Part shown: positions 6,314-24,761 of the stretch, in pieces
How positions within the stretch are numbered: position 1 is the stretch's first letter
Layout of the letters: every line of letters starts with the position of its first letter
Origin: a virus
Strand: one strand, 5' to 3'
DNA: 27,833 bases
IMG/VR virus record: IMGVR_UViG_3300035698_009352
Span: 1-27,833 of that record
Position numbers and translations under genes: made by a program
The notes under the pieces: model-generated
Seen by the model: only the letters and a program-made list of their open reading frames with translations
Told to the model about the DNA's origin: nothing
Database searches by the model: none

Positions 6314-6476
6314 ACGACTCGCTGCGTCATGGGTCCAACCCTATACATACTTCAAGAACACAGAACCAGACGGTTGTGAGAAGGTATCCAAGACTTTAGA
6401 CAAGTTTGTAGTCATGGACCTGGAAGAATTAACAGAATTGATTACAATATTAGAGAAGAGGTTGAATCGTGGCTGA
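6225..6476 (+). CDS. 83-aa acidic helical hypothetical protein
   Basis: ATG at 6225 follows GAGGGCAAGGA. An ATG at 6267 (MPEDLDDLELLEKLRRR) is another in-frame start but lacks a ribosome-binding site. The protein is acidic and helical, with leucine-rich stretches at about 18-32 and 64-80 that could form a coiled coil. It overlaps the next gene by 8 bases. Small acidic helical proteins are common in phages before the structural genes; no specific role can be assigned. Confidence 0.7.
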   Translation: MGQIDIRLQFLDTAMPEDLDDLELLEKLRRRLAASWVQPYTYFKNTEPDGCEKVSKTLDKFVVMDLEELTELITILEKRLNRG

Positions 6477-7344
6477 AGAAGAAACCAAGTTCCTTTCTCC
6501 ACTCATCGCTCGTTCCCTGAAGCGAGGACGTAGAAAAGAAGAAGAACATCAGCGCTCTACAGAAGAAGAGCGTGGAGAAACCAAGACTGCCGTCAGATCC
6601 GTGACTCTGAGCGGTATCGGTATCACTGATGAGGGGACTGAGATCGATCGGAACTACTTCGTAGCCCTCAAGGGTTACGTAACTCCCCAGAATGATAGGA
6701 TGCTTAGCAAAGCTGACGCCAAGAAGATTCAGAAATACATGATCGGACTTTCTACCGGTGCTGCGGCTGTCATGCCTATGACTTGTGTCGGTCCTATGTG
6801 CCCTATGTCCAGTAAGTGTGTCTTCATCACTGGGCAGATTGATGGTGGCCCTCCACTCACATACCCCTGTCCTATCGAGATCGCTATGATCGCTCACAAG
6901 AAACAACTCTATATTGAAGAGTTTGAAGTGTCCCTCGAGTCTGTAGTAGAGCTCAGTCTCATTGATGAGCTAGTTCGCCTGGAAATCGAGGAGATTCGCC
7001 TTACCGCGCAGCTATCCAAGGAAAGAGACTCCGCACTGGTTACCGAGGAAGTCATAGGTTCAGAAAATGAGGATCCGATCTACCAACGCCGGGTGAGCCC
7101 AATTATCGAAGCTCTGGAGCGTAGGTCCAATAAACGGGCTAAGCTTTTGAAGATGATGGTAGGGGATCGGGAGTCCAAGTGGAAAAAGCTGGTTGGACTC
7201 AATAAACGGGACGAGAACGATGCTGCTAACAGTATGGCTGATATGTCTACATTTGCTAACTCAATCATTGAAGCACTGAAAGCAGGTGCTACTGTAGAAG
7301 ATATGGAGGCTTTGGTCGCGTCTACGGTGGCCAAGAAAATATAG
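6469..7344 (+). CDS. 291-aa cysteine-cluster protein near the packaging genes
   Basis: It starts at GTG 6469-6471, 8 bases inside the previous gene, with GAAGAGG upstream. Residues 1-40 are charged and disordered. Residues about 100-136 carry Cys106, Cys111, Cys117 and Cys134 in the pattern CVGPMCPMSSKC...YPCPIE, a probable zinc or iron-sulfur site. A helical region (140-180, YIEEFEVSLESVVELSLID) and a long helical C-terminus (200-291) follow. I have a general recollection of this 'C..CP...C...G..CPIE' pattern in uncharacterised phage proteins near terminase genes. A small-terminase or DNA-binding role is a possible inference, not shown. The stop abuts the TTG of the next gene. Confidence 0.85.
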   Translation: MAEEETKFLSPLIARSLKRGRRKEEEHQRSTEEERGETKTAVRSVTLSGIGITDEGTEIDRNYFVALKGYVTPQNDRMLSKADAKKIQKYMIGLSTGAAAVMPMTCVGPMCPMSSKCVFITGQIDGGPPLTYPCPIEIAMIAHKKQLYIEEFEVSLESVVELSLIDELVRLEIEEIRLTAQLSKERDSALVTEEVIGSENEDPIYQRRVSPIIEALERRSNKRAKLLKMMVGDRESKWKKLVGLNKRDENDAANSMADMSTFANSIIEALKAGATVEDMEALVASTVAKKI

Positions 7345-9666
7345 TTGGATCTTAGTAATGTACTATTCCTCGATATTGAAGCGGCTGGGCTATCGCCCGG
7401 TGGCAACCAAGTCCTTTCATATTACCACTCCAAGGGGCAACAGAATCTAGCTGCCCTCAAGACCAACGAACGGTTCATAGCTCCCCAAATAGGTCAGAGT
7501 ATCACTGGGTTCTCCAAAGAGAGAGTTCTACCACAGCTAGCAGGTAAGAATCTCGAGTCTGAAGCTAAGGGTATCAGAAATCTGATAGATACCTTTAAAC
7601 AGAACAAGGGCGGTACGTTAGCTGGCTGGAACCTTGGAGAAGCAAAGAAGTTCGGCTCGAGTGCAGGCTTCGACCTCTCATTCCTCTATGATAGGGCCGC
7701 AGTAGGCTATGGTGCTGGGGCTGGAGCAGAATTCAAGGAAGCTGTAGGCGGGATGAAGCTGTGGGACGTTGCTAAGTCCTACAAGGATCTAGCTGCAGGT
7801 GCATTCAAGGGTCAAGGTGTCATAGACGAAATAGAGATGTTGCGAGGAGCAGCTACTGGTTCTCATGCTGCAGGATATTCGAAGTTTGCTGGACAGTATC
7901 GAGGTTACGCTGTTGGTGGTGGAGAAAAGGTCGCAGGCTGGGGCCTCGGTATGCTTCACGACTTCTGGGGCAGAGAGCTCGAGGGTAAAGGTGCCCTAGA
8001 GAAGGGCTGGCTAGAAAAACAGAATCAACTGATCAAACAGCATGGTGGTGCTCATGGTGCCGGCGTAGACATCGAGGTCATGACCAAGAACATGGCTGAG
8101 ATGTTCGGTAGTCACCAGTCTACAATGGAACAGATCGTAGAAGAGGATTCTGCTGGGTTTAGGCGACGACTCTACAAAGCACACGATATGTTCGGTAGAA
8201 TGAATCCCAAGACCGCTGCTGCAACTACTACTATGACACCCGAGCTCCTCGAGGGGATGGGGATCTCTGTCAGTGGCGCTGAAAAGGCTGCTGCAGAGAA
8301 GGTTTACTTTGGTAACGCTGGAGCTTTTGCTCCTGAGGTAGAGAAAGGAGCGACGAGACGAGGCCTGGGTAAGGGTGCTTCAGCACTGAAGAGTGTGTTC
8401 CGTGGTTATGGTGGAGCTATCGCAGCTGGTGGAGCAGCACTGGTCCTAGGGGCAAACCTCTTCTCTGGTTTCGATGATGACTTCAATACTATCGAAGGTC
8501 TCCCTCACGGTGGTCTAGGTCAAGGGCTAAGGATGAGTCTCACTGACTTCGGTTCTGGTTGGAGAGGATTGACTCAAGGTAACTCTCTACCTATGTCTCT
8601 CATGGGACAGAAGATTGATCCTGAGATCCTGGCCTTTAGAACAGGCACCTGGGCTGATAAGAGTGAACGACGAGACCTAGAGTCTCAGTTAAAGCGCAAT
8701 GAGAAGGCAGCACAGGGGGAGCTTGCTTCGTTTAGTCCTACTGACTTCTTCCAGCAGAATCTTGCGACTATCGAGGGAATCAACCAGAACAACCAAGATC
8801 TCACTGCTGTAAACATCGACAACTTCTCTGTCAACGTGGATGATGCTGACACTCTTGTTTTAAAACGTCGCGGTTTGCAAAACATGTTCAAGAAGGACAT
8901 CCAAGTCCGTCTTGCCGGTATCGATGCTCCTGAGACCGCAGGCCATAGTAATGACCCACTCGACATGGTTCGTATCTGGCAGGCACAGCCAGGTGGTGAA
9001 GAAGCTGCACAGATGCTCAAGAACCTCATGCAGCACAAGAGGATGGGGCTTGTTGTATCGACTGGAAGAAAGACCTACGGTCGTTATCTAGGTGCTCTCT
9101 ATGATGAAGAAGGAAAGAACGTCAACCTCGAGCTCTTGCGTGCTGGTGCAGTAACAAACTTGCCTTTCGGTAAAAAGAAGTGGGACGTCATAGACAGGCA
9201 AGCTTCTGCTCAAGCAGAAGAAGCAGCCTTTACTGACAGACGAGGCCTGTGGCAGTATAAACGCTACAAGGCTATGAAACAGGTCAATGAATCTGTCGGT
9301 CGTCCTCTTACTCACAACTTGATGACTCGTATCGACAAAATGGGACGTAACCTTTCTCTAGGAGCTTATGGTTCATGGCTAGCAGAGATGGGAGACGAGC
9401 GTGGGGAGCTTCGTGGTGGAGAGATCTCCAAGGCTAGTAAGATGGGCCGTGTTCTTGCCAAGACACACGGTAACCCTAGTAGCTGGGGTAAGAAGAATCC
9501 GAACGTGAGCAGAGATGATGGTAAGCCAAGAAGACGAAAAATGGAGATGGCGAAGAAGCAGAAATTAGCACAAGCAATGATGTTCAATTCCGCGAATGGT
9601 GGTTCTGGTAGTCCTCGAGGAGGCCAGAGACATACTGGATTCGCAGGTTCAAGGATTATGGGGTAG
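7345..9666 (+). CDS. DEDDh exonuclease - hydrophobic linker - SNase-like nuclease fusion
   Basis: The start is TTG 7345, directly after the previous stop; the exonuclease motif begins nine residues later, which supports it. Residues 1-250 contain DEDDh 3'-5' exonuclease motifs: D10-I-E12, FDLSFL with D110, and H237-GAGV-D242 (Hx4D). Residues about 350-376 are a Gly/Ala-rich hydrophobic segment, followed by NTIEGLPHGGLGQ and TDFGSGW. Residues about 496-640 match a staphylococcal-nuclease-like domain: VRLAGIDAPE (R522, D527, E530), YGRYLGAL (R580), NLELLRAGAV and RRGLW at the end. The C-terminus is basic and disordered. All catalytic residues appear intact. It is encoded with structural genes, so it may be a virion component; targets (host DNA, competing DNA, or phage DNA ends) are unknown. 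Confidence 0.9.
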   Translation: MDLSNVLFLDIEAAGLSPGGNQVLSYYHSKGQQNLAALKTNERFIAPQIGQSITGFSKERVLPQLAGKNLESEAKGIRNLIDTFKQNKGGTLAGWNLGEAKKFGSSAGFDLSFLYDRAAVGYGAGAGAEFKEAVGGMKLWDVAKSYKDLAAGAFKGQGVIDEIEMLRGAATGSHAAGYSKFAGQYRGYAVGGGEKVAGWGLGMLHDFWGRELEGKGALEKGWLEKQNQLIKQHGGAHGAGVDIEVMTKNMAEMFGSHQSTMEQIVEEDSAGFRRRLYKAHDMFGRMNPKTAAATTTMTPELLEGMGISVSGAEKAAAEKVYFGNAGAFAPEVEKGATRRGLGKGASALKSVFRGYGGAIAAGGAALVLGANLFSGFDDDFNTIEGLPHGGLGQGLRMSLTDFGSGWRGLTQGNSLPMSLMGQKIDPEILAFRTGTWADKSERRDLESQLKRNEKAAQGELASFSPTDFFQQNLATIEGINQNNQDLTAVNIDNFSVNVDDADTLVLKRRGLQNMFKKDIQVRLAGIDAPETAGHSNDPLDMVRIWQAQPGGEEAAQMLKNLMQHKRMGLVVSTGRKTYGRYLGALYDEEGKNVNLELLRAGAVTNLPFGKKKWDVIDRQASAQAEEAAFTDRRGLWQYKRYKAMKQVNESVGRPLTHNLMTRIDKMGRNLSLGAYGSWLAEMGDERGELRGGEISKASKMGRVLAKTHGNPSSWGKKNPNVSRDDGKPRRRKMEMAKKQKLAQAMMFNSANGGSGSPRGGQRHTGFAGSRIMG

Positions 9667-9675
9667 AATAGAGTT

Positions 9676-10635
9676 ATGCTTAGTTGGTCACTACTCAAGA
9701 CAGCAGGTAAAGGTCTTCTAGGTCCAGGTAAGACCATTAGTGAGATTGGTGGTCGTACTCGTTGGGGTATGAAGGGTGGCGGCATTGGTGCTATGGCCCA
9801 CTGGGGGGCTACCAATCTCATGGTCCGTCCTGCACTTGGTGGTGTAGCTGGTGCAGCGTATGGTTCTACTCAAGAGAATAGAGCAGAGGGTATTTTAGGT
9901 TATGCTGCTGCTGGCGCTGCTGTCGGCCTAGGTATAGCCCCTGCAAGTAGAGCGATCACTGGTGCTGCTAAAAGTATGATGGTCAAACGAGGAATGCAAC
10001 AGACTGGTGGATTTGGTGCTGGTCAGCTACGTGCTTTCGAACACTCCTACACTGGCGGCTGGCTACCACAGACAGCTATTACCGGTGGTCCTCCTGCCGT
10101 AAGAGGATCTCTCAAGCTTAGAGAGAGAATCCTTTTAGGTCGAGGTGGAGTGAAGAGTTTAAACCAATCCAAGAATATGTATGGCCTTACTCCTTACGTT
10201 AATAAGAGTGGCAATAGTATGTCTAGTATGTGGCAAATAGGCAAAACTAACGAGACTGGGACTTTGGTAGAGGGTTTTGATAGGTATGCATTTGCTCATG
10301 CAGACAAAAACATATTAGAGCGTGCTGCTGGTGGAATAGCCCATACGGCCGGTTCGCTAGGTACTAATGTTATGGAGACTGGTGGCCTAGTAGGAATGGC
10401 TGCACGAGGAACTCTAGGCATGATGGCCAAGCATCCTACAGCAACAATGGTTGGTGCTGGTGGAGCTTTTGCGACACATGGATTGCTCTGGGGTGACCAA
10501 GGTCACCAGTCGATGGGTGGAGGAAGAACAGGTGATTCGTATTATAAAGATTACGCTGCACTACACAAACGTAGGTATGAGCAGTCAGGGTTAGACAATC
10601 TAGTGCAAGGCCTCCACCAGGGTCGTCATGGGTAA
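9676..10635 (+). CDS. 319-aa Gly/Ala-rich glycine-zipper-like protein
   Basis: ATG at 9676 has only a weak ribosome-binding site. The protein is rich in Gly and Ala. Residues about 53-100 contain GGVAGAAYGSTQENR, then a hydrophobic ILGYAAAGAAVGLG stretch, resembling the segment of the 12286-12591 protein. A second hydrophobic Gly-rich part lies near 235-275 (GMAARGTLGMMAKH, MVGAGGAFATHG). Such glycine-zipper segments pack helices in membranes or pores. A role as an internal virion or membrane-inserting ejection protein is inferred. The C-terminus GLHQGRHG overlaps the ATG of the HNH gene and resembles the end of that gene (see findings). Confidence 0.85.
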   Translation: MLSWSLLKTAGKGLLGPGKTISEIGGRTRWGMKGGGIGAMAHWGATNLMVRPALGGVAGAAYGSTQENRAEGILGYAAAGAAVGLGIAPASRAITGAAKSMMVKRGMQQTGGFGAGQLRAFEHSYTGGWLPQTAITGGPPAVRGSLKLRERILLGRGGVKSLNQSKNMYGLTPYVNKSGNSMSSMWQIGKTNETGTLVEGFDRYAFAHADKNILERAAGGIAHTAGSLGTNVMETGGLVGMAARGTLGMMAKHPTATMVGAGGAFATHGLLWGDQGHQSMGGGRTGDSYYKDYAALHKRRYEQSGLDNLVQGLHQGRHG

Positions 10636-11404
10636 GTCTTTGACAAAGGAAAATGCTGTTTTACTCGCTTCTCTATGGTATGAAAGAGGATTGTCGAGAG
10701 ATAAGGCATGTGAAATCGTCAAGATTCCGAGGGGTTCCGCAACCTATCTTCTTCAAAAATTTGGTCTTCACCAGCGGAAGACGATCCGACATTCATATTC
10801 AGAAAAACAGATGGAGTCGGTTGTTCGACACTATGAAGAAGGAATGACTAGAAAAGAAGCATGTCAAAAAGTAGGACTTAGCGAAGGCTGTTTTGATGCT
10901 GTTAAAAGAAAGTATAATCTAAAATGTCGTCCGGCTGGTTTTCAGCCAGGGAATAATGTCGGTAGACAATTTAAACTCAAACCTAGAACCTCGCGTGACT
11001 GTTTATATTGTGGACAAGAAATGCTTCTCGCTCCATATGAAGTGAAAAACAATAAACGGTTCTGTTCTTTTAGTTGTCGAAGTCTCTATTTTGCTAAGAG
11101 AGGTAAAGATCATCCGATGTGGAAAGGTGGAATCTCTGACAAATGGTCTAAACTCCATAACAGCAAAGAGTACCAAGATTGGAGATTGACTGTATACCAA
11201 AGAGATAGGTTCTCTTGTTTTCTCTGCAAACAGCCGCAGTCTAGGAAGAATAGATTACATGCCCACCATAAATACCCTAAGAAGGATTATCCTGAATTGA
11301 TTTTAGATATAAAGAATGGATTAACTCTATGTAAGGATTGCCATGTATTTGGGCATTCGAAGAACGCACTACAAATCCATCAATCTAGACACGGTGGTAG
11401 ATAA
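10628..11404 (+). CDS. HNH homing endonuclease with two N-terminal helix-turn-helix motifs
   Basis: Residues 3-47 and 56-98 are two similar helix-turn-helix units (RGLSRDKACEIVKIP and EGMTRKEACQKVGLS). C125/C128 and C146/C150 form a zinc finger. Residues about 184-245 form the HNH nuclease: W185RLTVYQRD, C197/C200, H211-A-H213-H214 with the catalytic His, N230, then C235/C238/H239. This is the architecture of free-standing phage homing endonucleases, which nick or cut a cognate site and copy themselves into it. Codons and base composition are more AT-rich than its neighbours. It overlaps the upstream stop by 8 bases and its stop overlaps the next ATG (TAATG), so it is wedged exactly between two structural genes. 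Confidence 0.93.
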   Translation: MGKSLTKENAVLLASLWYERGLSRDKACEIVKIPRGSATYLLQKFGLHQRKTIRHSYSEKQMESVVRHYEEGMTRKEACQKVGLSEGCFDAVKRKYNLKCRPAGFQPGNNVGRQFKLKPRTSRDCLYCGQEMLLAPYEVKNNKRFCSFSCRSLYFAKRGKDHPMWKGGISDKWSKLHNSKEYQDWRLTVYQRDRFSCFLCKQPQSRKNRLHAHHKYPKKDYPELILDIKNGLTLCKDCHVFGHSKNALQIHQSRHGGR

Positions 11405-12231
11405 TGGCTGAAACACCAGGTATGCGACAGCAGGTGATGACCCACGTAGAGAGCAACCCTCTCTATCAGAAGGGCCAGGGCATTTGGGAAGGTCTTCCTC
11501 CTGGAACTAAAGCTCGAGCAGGACAGTTTGGGCGTATCGGTAAACAGGCATTTCTTGGCGCGTTTGGAATGGAGTTTGGACAAAAGGGTACTTCCTTTGG
11601 AGGTGGCTTCTATAGTGGAAATGTAGCTCTTGCCGAAGGACTTGAAAATGCTGGCGTAAAAAGTATGCACGGGCAAAGAGCAGCACGCGCAAACTTCATG
11701 GGGGCGAGTAACAGAGTCGGCACGGGTTCTTGGCGATTCCTGGGATTGTCTGGAGAGACTGGCCGTGCTGCAGCTTACGAGGGTTTGAAGAAGGGTGGAG
11801 CATCATCCTATCAGGCATTTAGGGGAGCATCCAAAGGATTGCTCCATACAGCACTGCCTGCTGCATTTACTGGCTATGCAATGTACGAAGGATTTCAGCA
11901 CGGTGGTGTTTTTGGTGCTGCCAAGGCTGGTGTCAAATCTGCTGCTGAGTGGACTGCCTTTGAATTAGTTCTACAGACTCTAGGGCCATATGCGCTTCCT
12001 CTTGAAGCTGCTGCTCTTGGAGCTCTAGCTGGGTATGGGATGTACAAGGCTCTGGACTACGGGGCTCAGAAGACTCGACAAAAGAGAGGTCTGGAGTTCG
12101 GTGGAGCTAAGGTCCAGGATCCGTTTGGAAATATCGCCACTATGAGACAGCGATCTCTGATGGAAATGCAGAGAAGTCATGGTGCTATCAGGGGAGCTCT
12201 GGGAACGGAGGCTCAGTACCAACATATGTAA
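11404..12231 (+). CDS. 275-aa Gly/Ala-rich glycine-zipper-like protein
   Basis: ATG at 11404 overlaps the previous TAA (TAATG). It is Gly/Ala/aromatic-rich. Hydrophobic segments occur at about 150-168 and 195-223 (ALPLEAAALGALAGYGMYK). A conserved-looking C-terminal tail follows (DPFGNIATMRQRSLMEMQRS near 239-258, then ALGTEAQYQ). I believe tails of this kind occur in uncharacterised virion-module proteins of other phages, but I cannot check that here. It is probably an internal virion or membrane-active protein, by analogy with its neighbours. No enzyme motif seen. Confidence 0.85.
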   Translation: MAETPGMRQQVMTHVESNPLYQKGQGIWEGLPPGTKARAGQFGRIGKQAFLGAFGMEFGQKGTSFGGGFYSGNVALAEGLENAGVKSMHGQRAARANFMGASNRVGTGSWRFLGLSGETGRAAAYEGLKKGGASSYQAFRGASKGLLHTALPAAFTGYAMYEGFQHGGVFGAAKAGVKSAAEWTAFELVLQTLGPYALPLEAAALGALAGYGMYKALDYGAQKTRQKRGLEFGGAKVQDPFGNIATMRQRSLMEMQRSHGAIRGALGTEAQYQHM

Positions 12232-12285: not shown

Positions 12286-12591
12286 ATGCTAGGAACGGCC
12301 AAAGCTGCTTGGGGTCTCGGGATGGCTAACCCCGTTACTCGCAAGGTAATGTACGGTGCCGGCATTGGTGGAGCGTATGGAGCTCTCTCAGGTCGAGAGT
12401 CAATTGCTGGCGGTGCGATGAAGGGTGGTATGCTAGGGGCTGGACATGCTGCTTGGAAATTCGGAGGGGGTTTCAAGGGTCTGAATAATGCGCGTAAAGC
12501 TGGTATCTTAGGTTTTCGTGGGAAGAACTCAGCGAGATATATCGGACGCAATATCACCAAGACGCTGGGTAAAATCGAAGGCCTAATCTAG
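12286..12591 (+). CDS. 101-aa glycine-zipper-like protein
   Basis: ATG at 12286 follows AAAAGGAGGACTTTACG, the strongest ribosome-binding site of this block. The protein has GAGIGGAYGALSGRESIAGG and then GGMLGAGHAAWKFGGG (about residues 25-65), the same AYG..xxR..I.GG..GxxxG layout as residues 56-90 of the 9676-10635 protein. The ends are basic. It is likely a paralogous domain that inserts in a membrane or packs in the virion. It is directly before terL. Confidence 0.8.
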   Translation: MLGTAKAAWGLGMANPVTRKVMYGAGIGGAYGALSGRESIAGGAMKGGMLGAGHAAWKFGGGFKGLNNARKAGILGFRGKNSARYIGRNITKTLGKIEGLI

Positions 12592-12598
12592 GTGCTCT

Positions 12599-14512
12599 TT
12601 GAGTCAACTCGCTCCATCCTTTGACCTCGATAAATGCGAACCTACCTGCACTGAGTGTGTAGCGAAGTATAACGAGAAATACAGTAAAGAAACAAAGGAA
12701 TGGGAGCTCCCGTGTAGAGGGATACCCAAAAATCATCTTCCTGAAGCTATTACCAAGTTCATGACTGATGATCAAATCAATCAGCTAGAAACATCACTAA
12801 GTCCTCTGGCCTGGGCCAAGAAGTATCTGAACTGGGAACCTCGCTGGTATCAGAAGATTATGCTCGAGTGTACCTCCTTAAGAAAGGTCTCTCGTATCGG
12901 TAGGCAGGCTGGCAAGTCTGAGGCATTGTCTATACTTACATTGTTTCTGTTGTTTAATAACAAAAATTTCCACGGTATGGTTTTGACACCTTACAAGAGC
13001 CAGGCGGAGATCATTTTTCGACGGCTTAACAAGTTCATCAACAGTAATCCCTTTCTTGCTGCATCACGGATTCGTAATGTCCGTGGCCCTAACCATGAGA
13101 TTGGTTTGTCTAATGACTCTGGTATCGTGGGTTTTTCGACTGGTACCAAATCAGCACAGCATGCAGACTCAGCCCGTGGTGACTCTGTAAACCTCCTTAT
13201 CTACGATGAAGCTGATTTTATGGTACGTGAGGATATCGATTCGAGTCTTGCGACTATCATCAACTTCCCAGAGGCAGTTGTATGGATGTCTTCTACCCCA
13301 ACTGGTAAAAGAGAGGCATTCTATGATCGATGTGTGAACGATCCGATGTATCGGGAGTTCCACTATCCTAGCCACGCTAATGACAACTTCACTGAACGAA
13401 CAGACAGAGAGTTCAAGAGAAGTCTAACTGAGCTCGGTTACCAGCATGAGATCCTGGCCATCTGGGGTGAGCAGGCTGCAGGTGTCTATCAGAAGAAGTA
13501 TATTGATGCTGCTCTTACGGACTTCAAGTATGAGGATCAACAGCCACTAGTCGGTTGGACCTATACTGTCGGAGTAGACTGGAACGCTGGAGAGATTGGC
13601 ACTCGTATCGTAGTTATCGGATATAACAATTTAGCTGGTGAAGACGGGAAGTTAAGGGTCGTCCAAAAGTATACAGTCTCTCGAGATGGGTGGTCGCAGC
13701 TGGCTGCTATTGAGAAGGTCAAAGAGGTTAACAGAGAATGGAGTCCTACCTGGATCTATATTGACCAAGGATTTGGCTACGTTCAGGACGAGATCCTTCG
13801 ATTGGTAGGTTATCAGAGTAAGCCTGGAACTGCAGATGCTAGACTGAAGGATATTGTAATACCTTACGATTCTGGTTCTCAGATTGAAACCTTTGAACCT
13901 GTTACGAAACTGCCAGTAAAGAAGCCCGCTAAGGTCTTCATGGTCGAGAGCGCTGTCCGCTACTTCGAGGCTATGCAGATGGAAGTGTCTCAGTACGATG
14001 ATGAAATCAAGTCACAGTTGGCTGGTTACATCGTCGGTAAGGTAAGTGCAAATGGACGTCCCGTGTATCAAGCCGGTAACACACAGGCTGGAGACCACGA
14101 CATTGATGCGATGAACCTAGCCCTGGTGGCGTTTGCTTTGAAGTACTCGATCCTGGGAACTCCCAAATATAGTTACAAAATTCTCTTTGTTGACGAGCCT
14201 TTAAATGTTATTCTAGACAGAGGTGGGAGTGGGAAGCCTAGACAAGATACGCCGGGGATGCCCACTATCCGTATCGTTAGACCGCATACTAATTTGAGGA
14301 AGGATGTTCGACAGCAGCATAAGCCTGCTGGCGGAAGAACGAATTTCGGAGGAGGGTCGCCAATGAATCCAACCCTACCAGCGAATCACGCTTCGGGTAC
14401 TGGTACGAAGCTTTGGGATCATCCTGGATTCATGAGGGACAAGCCCGCTCCTGTTCGTAGAAGCAGAATCTACGGAGGAGATAGAGGTCGTCCTCATCGG
14501 ACAAATATCTAG
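12599..14512 (+). CDS. terL: Terminase large subunit (TerL)
   Basis: This is the ATPase-nuclease motor that cuts concatemeric DNA and pumps it through the portal. The start is TTG 12599 with a weak AGGTG upstream. The ATPase motifs are Walker A GRQAGKSE (101-108), Walker B LLIYDEAD (199-206) and the coupling motif SSTPTGK (231-237). The RNase H-like nuclease has acidic residues in VGVDWNAGE (D327), WIYIDQG (D389) and GDHDIDAMN (D499-D503). The N-terminus has CEPTCTEC plus Cys39, a possible small metal site not usual for TerL. The C-terminus (about 540-637) is a Pro/Gly/Arg-rich tail, making the protein longer than many TerLs. A separate small subunit is not obvious. Confidence 0.97.
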   Translation: MSQLAPSFDLDKCEPTCTECVAKYNEKYSKETKEWELPCRGIPKNHLPEAITKFMTDDQINQLETSLSPLAWAKKYLNWEPRWYQKIMLECTSLRKVSRIGRQAGKSEALSILTLFLLFNNKNFHGMVLTPYKSQAEIIFRRLNKFINSNPFLAASRIRNVRGPNHEIGLSNDSGIVGFSTGTKSAQHADSARGDSVNLLIYDEADFMVREDIDSSLATIINFPEAVVWMSSTPTGKREAFYDRCVNDPMYREFHYPSHANDNFTERTDREFKRSLTELGYQHEILAIWGEQAAGVYQKKYIDAALTDFKYEDQQPLVGWTYTVGVDWNAGEIGTRIVVIGYNNLAGEDGKLRVVQKYTVSRDGWSQLAAIEKVKEVNREWSPTWIYIDQGFGYVQDEILRLVGYQSKPGTADARLKDIVIPYDSGSQIETFEPVTKLPVKKPAKVFMVESAVRYFEAMQMEVSQYDDEIKSQLAGYIVGKVSANGRPVYQAGNTQAGDHDIDAMNLALVAFALKYSILGTPKYSYKILFVDEPLNVILDRGGSGKPRQDTPGMPTIRIVRPHTNLRKDVRQQHKPAGGRTNFGGGSPMNPTLPANHASGTGTKLWDHPGFMRDKPAPVRRSRIYGGDRGRPHRTNI

Positions 14513-17234: not shown

Positions 17235-19802
17235 GTGGCATTAATGGACCTTTTCCGGAAAGAAAAAGAACCTAGGATCAGTAAGTTTAGATCTCCTGCG
17301 GGAGCTCCATTCAATGTCGCTCAGGATGCTAAGAAACCCTCAAAGAAAACTCACAACAAGATTCTATCCCTACCTAAGCTACTGAAAGAACAGAAGCAAC
17401 TTCGAACTCCTCTAAAGAGTTTTCAATCCATGTCTAACTCAGAGGGTTGGATCTATTCAGAGTATGATCTAGCAGAGCCTTACCGTATCGGAGATACAGA
17501 AAGTTACTTTAACCAGGCAATCAAGAAGAAGACAGCACTAGCTTTCAAGTATGGATTTGATTTTGTCGGGCCTAACAAACGACAGATCGACTATATCAGG
17601 ACACGGCTACGGCAGATCGAGTTCATGACCAAGCTCTCGAGCACTCAGCTTTTACGGAAGGTGTTCAGGGACTTGGCTACTTGTTCCAATGCTTTTATGA
17701 TCAAGGTTAGAAACCCCAAGGCTTCTGGGGGTATGACTCGATCTCTAGGTAAGAAGGAACTCAAGCCAGTAGCCGGGTATTTTCTTGCTCATCCGTCAAC
17801 TATGCAGCCTATGGTTAAGGACAATAAGGTCGTTAAGTGGAGACAATACGTAGCCTCTGCTGGTGACTATGTCTATTTCAAGCCAGAAGATGTAATTCAT
17901 TTCACACTAGATAGGAAGCAGGGTTTCTTCTTTGGTACTCCTGTAACTACTGCTGTAAAAGATGATATCAGAGCTCTTCGAAAGATCGAAGAGAACGTCG
18001 AAATGCTCTTGTATCAACACCTTTTCCCACTGTTCCATTACATTGTAGGCACAGAGAAGCAACCTGCTGGCGTTGACCAAGAAGGCAATGATGAGTGTAT
18101 GGTAGCTCGATCAGAGCTACAGGCGATGGCTGCAGAGGGTGGTATTATTACCACTCATCGACATGAGCTCAAGCTTCTTGGTATTGAAGGTAAGGTTCTC
18201 GACGCAACAAAGTACCTGAGCTACTTTCAGCAGCGTGTCCTTGGTGGCCTGGGAATTTCTTCAGTAGATATCGGTATAGCTGATACTGCTAACCGAGCTT
18301 CAGCTGATTCACTCAGCCGTAGTCTCATTGATTCAGTGCGGGATATCCAACTCATCATTAAAGAGATCTTTGACCGTGAGGTCATTCAAGAGCTACTGCT
18401 CGAGTCTAGCTTTATGTCTCTACAGAATATTTTTGATGGAACACAGACTACACTCAGCTGGGCTGAGATTGATACAGATTACAAGGTAAAGATCGAGAAT
18501 CACTATCTTGATATGTTTGTGAAGCAGGCTATTACCCACAGAGAACTAAGGCAGGAGATCGGTCGAGATCCGATTAACCTCGAGGATGGAGACGAGGACT
18601 TTGAGGAGCTTTACTTTAGTGCTTTCGAAAAACCGCTAGCTCTGCTCAAGGCTGGACAGGATCCATATTCCATGGGTGCCTTGGCTTCTGCTCGAGCACG
18701 AGGAACTGGCGTTGAAGAGGGTGACGTCAAGGCAGGCAAGGCGGCAATTCTGAATCGAGAGACTGCAGTGCGCAAGGCTGGAGCAGCTTCCAAGCCTACT
18801 GCAAGTGGTTCCAAGGCCAAGGCTAAGCCTAAGTCTAATATTTCCGCAAAAGTGAAACCTAAGAACCAGCATGGGTCTGGTGTCCCAACCCGCAAGAAGG
18901 ACGAGCTTGAGATGTCCGATGCCTTAGAAGCAAAGGGTAAGCTGATCCGCAACCGTAAGGTCTATAGGGATAGCGAGCTACTAGATGAGTACGGACAGAT
19001 TCGGTTGGCCGTAATCGACTTCGTGAGGACTAAGGAAGATCTAAGTAAGCGAGATCATGATCATATTTACAGCCTGCTCAAGCTAGGACAGACTAATCTT
19101 AAGAAGAGAATCTCGAGAGTTCAGCATGATGGATACCGGGCTGGGATCAATAAGACGATCATTCCGATCGATGTCATCAGGACGCTAGATGAGAGAGCTG
19201 AGAAGTACACACAGCGACTGATTGATAAACTGTATCATAACATCGAAAGGGCTTTAATTGACAAGAATGTCCAAGATGGTAAAATTTCACCAGAGCTTGC
19301 TATTGGAGATAGGTTCGATTCTTTGGAATTTCGACTGAATTTTTTAAGTGATTTCGAGACTAAGCTGGCTAAGACATGGGGAAGTACCAGGACTTGGCTA
19401 GAGGATAAGGGGTTTTTGGGTGGAGAGTTTGTCACTGTCGGTAAAGATGGAAAGATCACACTCCAGAAAGGTCTCGGAAAATTCCCAGTTGCAACCATAG
19501 AGAATGGAGACGATCCTTGCGAAACTTGTGCGGATCATTCAGAAAGTCTGGTTGTAACAGATGTCAATAGTCTCTACTTCAATCCAGAGAGACTATCTCC
19601 ATTCCATCCAGGATGTCACTGTAAGGTCCAATTGGACGTATTCCATAACGAGCCAGAGGATGAAACCTCAGATGGCGAAAAGACGGAGAGTTGCATGACG
19701 AAGGTCAAGGCACAGTTGAAAGAGAAAAACGCAAAGTGGACTGACAAGAAGGTCAAGTCCGCCGCTTCTGCTATTTGTACCAAATCAACTGGTGGTAAAT
19801 AA
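17235..19802 (+). CDS. Portal protein fused to a MuF-like head morphogenesis domain
   Basis: It starts at GTG 17235 with AGGAG seven bases upstream. Residues 1 to about 490 are a phage portal: an early SEGWIYSEYDLAEPYR segment, LRKVFRDLATCSNAFMIKV, YFKPEDVIHFT and an FFFGTPV...DDIRAL wing region. The portal is the dodecameric ring through which TerL pumps DNA. Residues about 492-560 are a Lys/Ala/Pro-rich linker. Residues about 560-800 resemble the MuF minor head protein, ending in DPCETCADH (758-766) and PFHPGCHCKV (789-798), the typical 'C..C ... P.HP.C.C' signature. A short C-terminal piece (819-850) has paired cysteines ending in SAICT. At 855 aa it is far longer than a plain portal. The stop overlaps the next ATG. 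Confidence 0.93.
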   Translation: MALMDLFRKEKEPRISKFRSPAGAPFNVAQDAKKPSKKTHNKILSLPKLLKEQKQLRTPLKSFQSMSNSEGWIYSEYDLAEPYRIGDTESYFNQAIKKKTALAFKYGFDFVGPNKRQIDYIRTRLRQIEFMTKLSSTQLLRKVFRDLATCSNAFMIKVRNPKASGGMTRSLGKKELKPVAGYFLAHPSTMQPMVKDNKVVKWRQYVASAGDYVYFKPEDVIHFTLDRKQGFFFGTPVTTAVKDDIRALRKIEENVEMLLYQHLFPLFHYIVGTEKQPAGVDQEGNDECMVARSELQAMAAEGGIITTHRHELKLLGIEGKVLDATKYLSYFQQRVLGGLGISSVDIGIADTANRASADSLSRSLIDSVRDIQLIIKEIFDREVIQELLLESSFMSLQNIFDGTQTTLSWAEIDTDYKVKIENHYLDMFVKQAITHRELRQEIGRDPINLEDGDEDFEELYFSAFEKPLALLKAGQDPYSMGALASARARGTGVEEGDVKAGKAAILNRETAVRKAGAASKPTASGSKAKAKPKSNISAKVKPKNQHGSGVPTRKKDELEMSDALEAKGKLIRNRKVYRDSELLDEYGQIRLAVIDFVRTKEDLSKRDHDHIYSLLKLGQTNLKKRISRVQHDGYRAGINKTIIPIDVIRTLDERAEKYTQRLIDKLYHNIERALIDKNVQDGKISPELAIGDRFDSLEFRLNFLSDFETKLAKTWGSTRTWLEDKGFLGGEFVTVGKDGKITLQKGLGKFPVATIENGDDPCETCADHSESLVVTDVNSLYFNPERLSPFHPGCHCKVQLDVFHNEPEDETSDGEKTESCMTKVKAQLKEKNAKWTDKKVKSAASAICTKSTGGK

Positions 19803-22192
19803 TGAGTGACCAAGAAGACCAATTTCTAATCCAAGATAGTTTCGGTCTCGAGATTCCTAAGCTCGTTCCTGAGAAGCTAAAGGTTCTCGATGCTGCTTAC
19901 CGAGATAGTAATGGTCCTCAGGATCTGTTCATCAAAATGAAGGCCACCCATGGTGGCATCGTTAATGGTAACAAGGTACTTTATGTTCCTTATCGGCAAC
20001 GTGATTCCCTACATACATTCACTCAGCCCTACCCCAAGCCTTTCTTGTCGCGTCACTTTCGTCCTATGGAAGAGAGCTCCAATGAGGCTATCGGTCGTGT
20101 AGCAGATGCTGGATTCGTTGACCTCTCAGACAACTACAAGATGGTCACTCAGGATAGCTTGAACTCCGTCAATGGTCTGATGCAGGACAATGGTGCGAAT
20201 CGGATGTACAAGGGCATCCAGAAGATGATGAAGTATGGTCTTCTAGCTGATAAAAGTTGGGAAGGCCTTAGCTATGTAGAACTCTTGGTGCGAGTAATCG
20301 ATCCTGATGCAATTCAGAAGATTGTAGATGGACGTTACTTGACTGTTTCTACTTCTCAAGCAACAGACGATATGGTTTGTTGGCACTGTAAGAGAAGCCT
20401 CAAGAGCGGTGGTTGTGATCACCCTAGAGGCAAGGTCTACCAGGATGACGATGGGAATGAGTATCCTAACTTCTATATCTTCGGTAATTTTGATTACAGA
20501 GAAGTAACTGCAGTGCCTGTCCCAGCTGATCAGTTCGCAACCGTGGAGGTTACGAACCAGGTGAAGCTTGGCAGTGATTCTGCTTCCGAAGGTTTCTTGC
20601 TGAAAAATGCTATGTCTTCAATCAGTGAGATGTTCGTAGCAAGTCAAGATAGCGATTTTATGGTTTCTCTGACTGACAGAGGACCAAACATTTATGAGAT
20701 TAGAGATCACATGGAAGAACTAGATGGCATTGTACAAGCGGTAAAAAACGATAAGGGAAGGGACAAAAAAATGAAGGTAGTTGACTTCATGAAGCTGGAC
20801 GACGAAAAACAGATCGAGATGCTTGATGCTTTCAAGCCAGAAAGCGTGGAGGAGAAATCTCTATTTATTCGAGTCCACAACTCACTCCATCAGATTGCTA
20901 GTTGGGATGGCATCAATGACATGACTCCTGCTAATATCAAACTTCACCTGAAGTGTCATCAGCTAGCAGATGAGTATAAGTTCAATGACTCTCTTTCCTG
21001 GCCCAACGATGGTCTAGACGAGACTCTGGACGGACTCAAGTTCAAGATTCCCAAGGAATACTCCAAGTCTGATACAGACAATACAGAGCCAGAGACTCCA
21101 GCAGAAGAACCTGCTGTTGAGCCAGAGCCGAAGGTACCTGCCACAGATGCACCTGATGACAAACCTGCAGACGAGCCAAAGCCTGTAGATGAGCCAGCTA
21201 AGAGTACTGATGAGCCAGAGGCAGACTGGTTTGATGAGATCAAGGACTTTACAGCTGAGCATCTAACTGATGAAGTTGTAGGAAAGATCTCTGATCGGAT
21301 GGAAGAGGGAATGGCTGATGAGGCCAAGCTTTCTCCTGAGAAACGAAAGGATCTTCGGGCTTCACAGTGCTGTGGCCCCAACAACAGTTTCCCGGTGACA
21401 GACGCAGCCCATTACGCTGCGGCTAAGGCTCTTGTGTATAGTTACAAGGGTTCTGCTGATACCAAGAAGATTGCTAATCGAATTGAGCGTAGAGGTAAGG
21501 CCATGGGTTGCACAGAGAAGGCTAACAAGGTTGGCCTTGATGCCATGACTGCTGAGGAGCTACAGGCTCTCAACAAGCAGGTATTTGATAAGATGGTAGA
21601 GCTCAAGCTAGTCACTACAGACGAATGTGATACTTGTGCAAACTTTGAAGCCAAGCATGATGAAATGGTCAAGCAGCTCGAGGAGCTAGATGCGAACTTC
21701 GAGATTCTCGAGGATGAGGCTAAGATGCTTCGGGCCGAGAATGAAGTCATGGAAGACGAACTTGGTGATAAAGTCCGGGTAATCCGGGAATATAAGGTAG
21801 ATCGGGTCCTTCAGATCCAGCTATTAAACGGGGATAAAATTGAGGATTACGACCAGGCGCGGGAAGAGCTTCTAGCCGAAGACGCCCAAGCACTTGATTC
21901 GAAAGAAGAAGAATTGGTAGCGGGACTTGACACGAAGGAAATTACTGGTAGATTAAATAGTGGAATGGCAAACACTATCGATGGCACAGAAGAAATCCAA
22001 GATCCAACAGCTAATAATGCAATTAACGCAGATCAAAAACCCAAGGTCACAAAAGAGATGCTAGATCATATCGCAACTGAGCTCATGTCACGTCGATTTG
22101 GTTCGGCAGATGGTGCGGCTCAGGCTGAGATGTATCTAACAGATCTCCGTGAGCAAGGTATTCTACCTTCCATTGATCCGAAGAAAGTTTAG
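19802..22192 (+). CDS. Prohead protease - scaffold polyprotein
   Basis: Residues 20-250 resemble an S78-type prohead protease: KATHGG (H50), PKPFLSRHF (H85), IGRVADAGF, LTVSTS (S183, candidate nucleophile) and the end strand YREVTAVPVPAD. A zinc-ribbon-like CWHC...GGCDH (C193, C196, C205, H207) sits right after the candidate serine. Residues 325-415 are helical. Residues about 424-472 are a Pro/Glu/Asp-rich linker. Residues 520-570 contain CCGPNNSFPVTDAAHYAAA. Residues 610-690 form an acidic coiled coil suited to a scaffold. An in-frame ATG at 20771 (residue 324) with GGGAAGGGA upstream could produce scaffold alone. The protease matures the prohead and probably destroys the scaffold before packaging. 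Confidence 0.88.
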   Translation: MSDQEDQFLIQDSFGLEIPKLVPEKLKVLDAAYRDSNGPQDLFIKMKATHGGIVNGNKVLYVPYRQRDSLHTFTQPYPKPFLSRHFRPMEESSNEAIGRVADAGFVDLSDNYKMVTQDSLNSVNGLMQDNGANRMYKGIQKMMKYGLLADKSWEGLSYVELLVRVIDPDAIQKIVDGRYLTVSTSQATDDMVCWHCKRSLKSGGCDHPRGKVYQDDDGNEYPNFYIFGNFDYREVTAVPVPADQFATVEVTNQVKLGSDSASEGFLLKNAMSSISEMFVASQDSDFMVSLTDRGPNIYEIRDHMEELDGIVQAVKNDKGRDKKMKVVDFMKLDDEKQIEMLDAFKPESVEEKSLFIRVHNSLHQIASWDGINDMTPANIKLHLKCHQLADEYKFNDSLSWPNDGLDETLDGLKFKIPKEYSKSDTDNTEPETPAEEPAVEPEPKVPATDAPDDKPADEPKPVDEPAKSTDEPEADWFDEIKDFTAEHLTDEVVGKISDRMEEGMADEAKLSPEKRKDLRASQCCGPNNSFPVTDAAHYAAAKALVYSYKGSADTKKIANRIERRGKAMGCTEKANKVGLDAMTAEELQALNKQVFDKMVELKLVTTDECDTCANFEAKHDEMVKQLEELDANFEILEDEAKMLRAENEVMEDELGDKVRVIREYKVDRVLQIQLLNGDKIEDYDQAREELLAEDAQALDSKEEELVAGLDTKEITGRLNSGMANTIDGTEEIQDPTANNAINADQKPKVTKEMLDHIATELMSRRFGSADGAAQAEMYLTDLREQGILPSIDPKKV
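20771..22192 (+). CDS. Possible internally initiated scaffold protein
   Basis: ATG 20771, in frame with the protease gene, follows GGGAAGGGACAAAAAA, a plausible ribosome-binding site, and begins MKVVDFMKLDDEKQ. The product would be 473 aa without the protease domain: a helical part, an acidic proline-rich linker and a coiled coil. Nested scaffold genes are established in phage lambda (Nu3 within C). Here it is inferred from the start signal only. Confidence 0.4.
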   Translation: MKVVDFMKLDDEKQIEMLDAFKPESVEEKSLFIRVHNSLHQIASWDGINDMTPANIKLHLKCHQLADEYKFNDSLSWPNDGLDETLDGLKFKIPKEYSKSDTDNTEPETPAEEPAVEPEPKVPATDAPDDKPADEPKPVDEPAKSTDEPEADWFDEIKDFTAEHLTDEVVGKISDRMEEGMADEAKLSPEKRKDLRASQCCGPNNSFPVTDAAHYAAAKALVYSYKGSADTKKIANRIERRGKAMGCTEKANKVGLDAMTAEELQALNKQVFDKMVELKLVTTDECDTCANFEAKHDEMVKQLEELDANFEILEDEAKMLRAENEVMEDELGDKVRVIREYKVDRVLQIQLLNGDKIEDYDQAREELLAEDAQALDSKEEELVAGLDTKEITGRLNSGMANTIDGTEEIQDPTANNAINADQKPKVTKEMLDHIATELMSRRFGSADGAAQAEMYLTDLREQGILPSIDPKKV

Positions 22193-23477: not shown

Positions 23478-24761
23478 ATGAGTGATACCCTGACCACAGA
23501 CGTCCCAGAGAGTCAGTTGGACGAAGTTACAGCTGAGGACCTACAACTATTCCAGGACTATATGTTCCTGTTCACCACTGGTCGTAACCAGTCTGGTGAG
23601 CACATGAAGATGGAGGACGTCCTGGCGACTTCAAACGCCACTCCTCTCCTGAATCGTGTAGTTGAGACCGTGGTTCGCGATGCAGTTGAGCCTAACCTGA
23701 TGATCTCGCAGCTGTTCCAAACACTGCGATTTACTTCTGGTGCTCATATCATCGAGTTCCCAACAATCGGAGCTCTCTACGCTGCGGATATCCCGGAATC
23801 CGGTGAGTATCCTGAGCGGTACCCTGATTGGGGCGGCAGCACAGTCACTGCAAAGATTGGCAAGTCCGGTCTAGCAGTGAGGATCACTGACGAGATGATC
23901 CGCTACAGTCAGTTCGATGTCATCGGTATGATGCTTCGTAAGGGTGGGCAGGCTCTTGCTCGCTGGAAGGAAGCTAAGTGCTCCAAGATGCTTACTGCTC
24001 TTGGTGTTCGTGCTTTCGATAACGTGACTCCGACAGGCTCGGTTCACGGTGTCATGCACGGTCGGGACATGCAGGGTAATGCCAACGGGTCTATGACTCT
24101 AGATGACCTTATGGATGCCTGGGTGCTCCTGATGTCAAATGGCTATAATCCTAATACTCTAATCATGCATCCACTCGCGTTTGCGATGTTCCTGAAGGAT
24201 CCATACCTCCGCGAGTTCGCTCGTATGGCAGGTGGTGGTGTTTGGTTCGGTGGCTGGAATGGTAGTGCTCAGAATGTTAACCCATTCGGTGGACATGCTG
24301 GTGGCCAGGCTGGTCCAGGACGCGGTAACATCATAATTCCTGGTGGCGGCGCTTCAAGCGCGACTCCAACCGGAGAGAAGGAATACAACCAGCTTCTGAC
24401 TTCTTCACCGAAGCTCCCAGACCGCTGGCCCTTCCCACTACGTATGGTCATTTCACCACTGGTTCGGTTTATTCCGCACCGTAAGCTCACAGACATTATC
24501 CTCTGTGACAGCTCGGCCGTAGGCGCAATCCTGCAGGACGAGGATCCCACCACAGAGCAGTTCGAAGACGCTGCTCGGGACATGCAGAAGCTCAAGATTC
24601 GGGAGCGCTATGCGACCGTCGTACTCGAAGAGGGACAAGGCATCGTGACTCTGAAGAACGTACACGTAGTACCCAACGAGGTAATCCTACCTGCGCAGAC
24701 TACGCTAGATGTTAGCGCCTCAGTGCTAGCTCCGATCACCGCGACAGCGTCAGTCCTCTAG
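23478..24761 (+). CDS. Major capsid protein (HK97 fold)
   Basis: ATG 23478 follows GAAGGAGAGGAGATAAGAA. This is the shell-forming protein. The 427-aa length, its position after protease/scaffold and its strong G/C-ending codon bias agree. Visible are an N-terminal acidic helix (1-60), a SGAHIIEFPTIG strand, AVRITDEMIRYSQFDV like the spine helix entry, LDDLMDAWVLLMSNGYNPNTLIMHP typical of the P-domain, and a C-terminal VVLEEGQGIVTLKNV strand. Residues about 253-297 are a Gly/Asn-rich insertion likely forming a surface loop. No obvious cleavable delta domain beyond the short N-terminus. Followed by a strong terminator. Confidence 0.9.
   Translation: MSDTLTTDVPESQLDEVTAEDLQLFQDYMFLFTTGRNQSGEHMKMEDVLATSNATPLLNRVVETVVRDAVEPNLMISQLFQTLRFTSGAHIIEFPTIGALYAADIPESGEYPERYPDWGGSTVTAKIGKSGLAVRITDEMIRYSQFDVIGMMLRKGGQALARWKEAKCSKMLTALGVRAFDNVTPTGSVHGVMHGRDMQGNANGSMTLDDLMDAWVLLMSNGYNPNTLIMHPLAFAMFLKDPYLREFARMAGGGVWFGGWNGSAQNVNPFGGHAGGQAGPGRGNIIIPGGGASSATPTGEKEYNQLLTSSPKLPDRWPFPLRMVISPLVRFIPHRKLTDIILCDSSAVGAILQDEDPTTEQFEDAARDMQKLKIRERYATVVLEEGQGIVTLKNVHVVPNEVILPAQTTLDVSASVLAPITATASVL

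Follow-up and report, generated by a model that had tools for sequence, protein, structure and literature searches.

A two-nuclease gene beside the head genes of an uncultured virus belongs to a motif-linked family of modular multi-enzyme proteins

The locus

IMG/VR virus record IMGVR_UViG_3300035698_009352 was analysed over positions 1 to 27,833 (hereafter the window), a 27.8-kb viral contig that holds a late-gene cluster with a terminase large subunit (TerL), a portal protein and a major capsid protein. By terminase and portal, its nearest cultured relatives are Moorella phage MTATph1, Acinetobacter phage ME3 and Bacillus phage KLEB27-3 (177-235 kb). Here we describe one gene of this cluster, encoding a protein of 773 amino acids (aa) with a nuclease module on either side of a hydrophobic helix and a 34-aa motif, and a family of proteins which share that motif and appear to exchange the enzymes around it (Table 1). 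An earlier note made from the sequence alone had drawn attention to the two nucleases; the open reading frame (ORF) and every residue named there were recovered in the 773-aa translation. The ORF begins with a TTG codon immediately 3' of the TAG stop of the upstream gene and is preceded by no clear ribosome-binding site.

Table 1. Modules of the two-nuclease protein and genes marking its surroundings in the window
Feature	Position	Strand	Basis
Upstream gene marking the slot, 291 aa, Cys cluster	6469..7344	+	Homologues in many loci and in ME3, MTATph1, KLEB27-3
Modular nuclease protein, 773 aa (exonuclease, hydrophobic helix, motif, SNase, tail)	7345..9666	+	ORF, translation, family
DEDDh exonuclease module, aa 1-262 (D10, E12, D110, D141, H237, D242)	7345..8130	+	Invariant residues, fold, linked relatives
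Gly/Ala-rich hydrophobic helix before the motif, ~aa 357-372	8413..8460	+	Kyte-Doolittle (KD) peak 1.81
Inter-module motif, 34 aa, aa 373-406, FSGFDDDFNTIEGLPHGGLGQGLRMSLTDFGSGW	8461..8562	+	Motif profile, 64.8 bits
Staphylococcal nuclease (SNase) module, aa 489-659 (R522, D527, E530, R580)	8809..9321	+	Pfam PF00565; own profile
Basic C-terminal tail ending GGQRHTGFAGSRIMG	9529..9663	+	aa 729-763 share 51% identity with the L046 tail
TerL, downstream slot marker	12599..14512	+	Pfam/PHROG; homologues downstream of family genes
Portal protein, start of head module	17235..19802	+	PHROG 9232, E=3.1e-39
Major capsid protein	23478..24761	+	PHROG 3922, E=8e-19

Two nuclease modules in one protein

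The N-terminal module has the features of a DEDDh exonuclease. D10, E12, D110, D141, H237 and D242 are invariant across nine aligned family members, and the catalytic set of DxE, D and HX4D is present. An AlphaFold model of aa 1-415 has good confidence over roughly aa 1-150 and drops off after that; over aa 150-264 confidence is low. Structural alignment of aa 1-264, alongside which Foldseek was run, placed E. coli ExoI (Z 14.5), a TREX1 homologue (13.9) and Pol III epsilon (13.6) at the top, with RNase T also among the matches. The top matches are all DEDDh enzymes, and the modelled region appears to adopt the RNase H-like DnaQ fold. Linked relatives are recognised by library profiles: L034 matches PHROG 192, 'DNA polymerase exonuclease subunit' (6.7e-13), and Pfam RNase_H_2 (4e-6), and L038 matches PHROG 192 (9.7e-10). 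The exonuclease proposed in the earlier note from D10/E12, D110, H237 and D242 is therefore borne out by the invariant residues and by the fold search that the note had suggested. Fold and catalytic set, HX4D included, are common to this module and the DEDDh (DnaQ-like) 3'-5' exonucleases ExoI, Pol III epsilon, TREX1 and RNase T; the module differs from them in forming the N-terminus of a protein with several domains that is encoded in a virion gene cluster, in the additional invariant D141 of its family, and in that the window protein has no direct profile match.

The second module, an SNase-like domain in the earlier note, is placed in the SNase family by Pfam PF00565, which matches aa 520-637 (E=2.8e-15; 57.1 bits, above the curated cut-off of 21), and by the conservation of R522, D527, E530 and R580 across the SNase-bearing homologues. 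These residues correspond to R35, D40, E43 and R87 of staphylococcal nuclease. The catalytic R, D, E and R are thus common to that family and the window module, which differs in being embedded in a modular phage protein. An SNase domain also occurs in the baseplate hub protein of phage ME3 (L100, 9000-15989, a 2333-aa open frame), but that copy has no 34-aa motif, unlike the window protein. Large ORFs of MTATph1 and KLEB27-3 give weaker matches.

To judge from its residues, the window protein combines a DEDDh exonuclease with an SNase, each with a complete catalytic set, in one polypeptide encoded among head genes, as had been claimed. The Gly/Ala-rich hydrophobic joint between them is also real and recurs in relatives: KD peaks of at least 1.6 precede 27 of 98 motif copies, mostly the first of a protein, against 26 of 920 random positions.

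A repeated motif defines a modular family

Directly behind the helix lies the motif FSGFDDDFNTIEGLPHGGLGQGLRMSLTDFGSGW, which the first reading of the sequence had not recognised. Its consensus is FSG[KR]DDxYNTIEGLxHGGxAxxxRxxxTDFGSG[WY], and G13, G18, R24, F30, G31 and S32 are retained in 87-93% of copies. The motif strings are absent from the main text of searchable papers, and the motif model found no match in a viral structure library.

A homologue search with the whole protein found no relatives among viral contigs or cultured phages, exact peptides of TerL used as query found no viral contig, and PADLOC gave no match to the window protein. Relatives came from the motif. Its back-translated core, searched in IMG/VR, matched 16 contigs, 14 of them with true motifs in long ORFs; the other two (L012, L016) were dismissed as chance frames. 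Two further DNA patterns extended the set to 61 ORFs, 46 of them non-redundant, which carry 100 motif copies at 1-5 per protein. A scan of cellular genome contigs returned 11 matches and no convincing motif copy.

Enzyme modules are placed between the motif copies; they are mostly mutually unrelated and recur at different positions. Kinase-like modules are found in 22 of the 46 ORFs, the DEDDh exonuclease in 18 (often as the first module, and truncated or degraded in some), SNase in 15 and HEXXH, peptidase-like motifs in 13. One protein, L010, contains a DnaJ domain, and L034 matches the CRISPR-associated PHROG 1706, a module which we take to be Cas4-like. Judged by such matches, other copies of the family thus carry kinase, peptidase-like, DnaJ and Cas4-like modules. 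A recurrent module that starts GTGHKRI[IL]IPK and includes an HEDxH-like stretch was also seen between motif copies in L006, L008, L010, L015, L020 and L068. A match of Cyanophage S-TIM5 to L045 was set aside, because it lies in the kinase-like part and is not in the slot described below.

Seven of the 46 ORFs hold both nucleases, always with the exonuclease first (the window, L036, L044, L045, L050, L056 and L074). The pairing, which the earlier note could not associate with any known phage system, is therefore recurrent rather than unique; the fusion belongs to a previously unnoted family of giant-phage proteins. How far the enzymes vary is illustrated by L046, the closest contig by core genes (TerL 44.5% and portal 46.1% identical to the window). 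The slot protein of L046 is truncated at its N-terminus by the contig end. What remains can be aligned with the window protein in two places only, the motif (aa 371-411, 51%) and the tail (aa 729-763, 51%); elsewhere its visible modules differ from those of the window protein and include kinase-like sequence. Of 39 complete members, 19 carry a C-terminal signature of the type G[GRK]..H, where shuffling gave a mean of 3.0 and a maximum of 8; the signature was defined post hoc from the tails and is therefore a description rather than a blind test. Comparison of these sequences indicates that the enzymes are exchanged between phages while motif, helix, slot and often the basic tail stay constant.

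A conserved slot and its cultured relatives

Most loci with enough flanking sequence show one gene order, in which the homologue of 6469-7344 comes first, followed by the modular gene, small Gly/Ala-rich genes, the terminase and the portal region. The synteny check proposed in the earlier note thus yields a single slot between the 6469-7344 homologue and the terminase-portal cluster, a late, virion-gene location ahead of TerL, portal and major capsid protein. In ME3, MTATph1 and KLEB27-3 the flanking genes are retained and the motif protein is absent. The slot of ME3 is occupied by ME3_11 (AND75172.1, 529 aa), which opens with a DTET exonuclease motif and also has a Gly-rich helix, with LKP at its end, and a short His/Asn tail. 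Slot, DTET motif, helix followed by LKP and His/Asn tail liken it to the window protein, from which it differs in its length and in having neither SNase nor a motif match. ME3_11 is probably an exonuclease-only version of the slot protein, a grading set by its weak to moderate matches to PHROG 192 (E=4.7e-5) and to our own exonuclease profile (~1e-3). If so, and at a guess, a protein of exonuclease and helix may be the older form, to which SNase, kinases and other modules would have been added after the motif.

Neighbouring genes

The product of the 6469-7344 gene gave no match in Pfam and PHROG profile searches. Genes 6469, 7345 and 9676 share one frame, with single TAG codons between them. 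Amber read-through joining them was considered and rejected, because TAG is the commonest late-gene stop in the window and because several relatives have the same two genes overlapping in different frames; among the 17 late genes of 6469-27442, 10 stops are TAG, 7 TAA and none TGA. Between the nuclease gene and the terminase lie Gly/Ala-rich hydrophobic proteins (9676-10635, 11404-12231 and 12286-12591), whose position is conserved in relatives, and inserted among them is an HNH endonuclease with a helix-turn-helix (10628-11404); HNH genes are also found nearby in several relatives. The terminase genes of L046, L055, L056, L066, L020, L003 and L004 contain large insertions near the Walker A motif. 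An intein-like HN[ST] junction is present in the three inspected (L056, L004 and L003), and no insertion occurs in the window terminase. The 855-aa portal ORF is prolonged at its C-terminus by a long segment, in which a CxxC...HPGCHC stretch resembles a MuF-type head domain.

Comparison with known multi-domain systems

The closest parallel is offered by the polyvalent proteins of phages and conjugative elements; the phage versions typically lie near virion genes, and their packaging and injection have been judged likely (Iyer et al. 2017, PMC5512222). As described in the main text of that paper, they combine several unrelated enzyme domains per polypeptide in variable arrangements, and kinases and zincin-like HEXXH motifs are common to both groups. 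No repeated inter-module motif was found there, and SNase, DnaQ and DEDD are not mentioned in the main text; all are features of the window family, which further differs in its fixed slot upstream of TerL and in having no convincing copy in cellular genomes. Architectures of the family place at least two enzyme domains of disparate activity on one polypeptide; in the window copy the two nucleases are the only ones. Polymorphic toxins likewise join constant parts to exchangeable enzyme modules, but their variation is confined to the C-terminus whereas that of the window family runs throughout the protein (PMC3482391). Neither immunity or secretion genes nor a secretion-linked N-terminus, traits of such toxins, were seen in passing, no dedicated search having been made.

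Function and alternative explanations

We propose, with a probability of roughly 60%, that the gene encodes a variable multi-enzyme effector of the polyvalent-protein kind, which is probably packaged and injected. We infer packaging and injection from the late-cluster position, the exchangeable enzymes and the constant tags, which resemble those of phage polyvalent proteins. The protein would be produced together with the head proteins and packaged into the virion, with motif and tail as candidate packaging or docking signals, and would enter the host along with the phage DNA, the hydrophobic helix perhaps aiding membrane association or passage. In the host cell, the predicted SNase would make internal cuts and the predicted 3'-5' exonuclease would trim ends, so that host or defence nucleic acids might be degraded early in infection.

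Several observations weigh against this proposal. All 46 family members come from uncultured contigs, and the independent genes are somewhat fewer than 46 because some ORFs are pieces of one gene (e.g. L007, L053 and L057). The slot genes of KLEB27-3 are annotated 'hypothetical' rather than 'structural'. Pfam and PHROG profiles searched directly with the window N-terminus gave no match, and the exonuclease is degraded in some relatives: the acidic residues are missing from L055, and in L015 and L050 only the helical second half is left, the catalytic half being gone. These losses are sporadic and not the systematic loss that would have spoken against an active enzyme, and the exonuclease of the window protein shows no sign of decay. 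The motif model has a mean pLDDT (predicted local distance difference test) of 66 and no confident fold; it does not choose between a packaging or docking tag, a cleavage site and a flexible spacer, any of which the motif could be.

The second of these roles would make the protein a polyprotein, whose modules are separated at assembly by a head-maturation protease or an internal HEXXH peptidase. Such processing is compatible with packaging and addresses the role of the motif, which is located between modules and whose T-I-E-G bears a loose likeness to prohead-protease sites with Glu at P1; peptidase-like HEXXH motifs occur in 13 of 46 members, and among the relatives of the 19802-22192 product is a KLEB27-3 protein with the annotation prohead protease. 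We nevertheless regard it as doubtful. The Glu is not strictly kept (E in ~80% of copies, with TIQG, TIMG and TIKG as variants), the FGSG end is equally conserved, and 34 conserved residues exceed the needs of a bare cleavage site.

It is also unlikely that the protein stays unpackaged in the infected cell, as a late enzyme held at the membrane by its helix that degrades host nucleic acids or excludes other phages. A hydrophobic helix does stand ahead of the first motif in most members, and the labels of the KLEB27-3 slot genes agree with such a role, but expression beside head genes would be late for taking over the host, the constancy of motif and tail suggests a common need for delivery, and the repertoire of kinases, peptidases and nucleases resembles the injected polyvalent proteins described in the main text of PMC5512222. 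The second option of the earlier note was a DNA-end processing factor; such a role, or one in packaging, played together with the adjacent terminase seems improbable to us. The fixed position upstream of TerL, the frequency of the exonuclease as first module and the exonuclease-only look of the ME3 slot protein speak for it; yet many relatives in the same slot carry kinases or other modules and no nuclease, and the exonuclease is truncated or degraded in several. The idea fits poorly because modules are combined in many ways across the family and the nuclease pairing (7 of 46, with kinases commoner) is just one of them.

Within the proposal of an injected effector, we tentatively suggest that the 34-aa motif and basic tail form a tag that packages adjacent enzymes for injection, which would amount to a general cargo system of this phage lineage.

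Concluding remarks

Each of the domains described here, and the general idea of polyvalent proteins, was already known. New, so far as the searchable literature shows, are the repeated inter-module motif, the family that it defines, the slot, and the presence of SNase and DEDDh modules in such arrays. The two-nuclease fusion of the earlier note becomes one instance of a broader design, in which dozens of unannotated giant-phage proteins are joined into one family by a single motif, a conserved slot and swapped enzymes. This offers a testable account of how a phage may deliver several enzymes at once, with ME3_11 as a named cultured relative, and a possible short protein-packaging signal. If the motif and tail do act as a cargo tag, the family would represent a natural scaffold for protein delivery, evolving as modules are exchanged.
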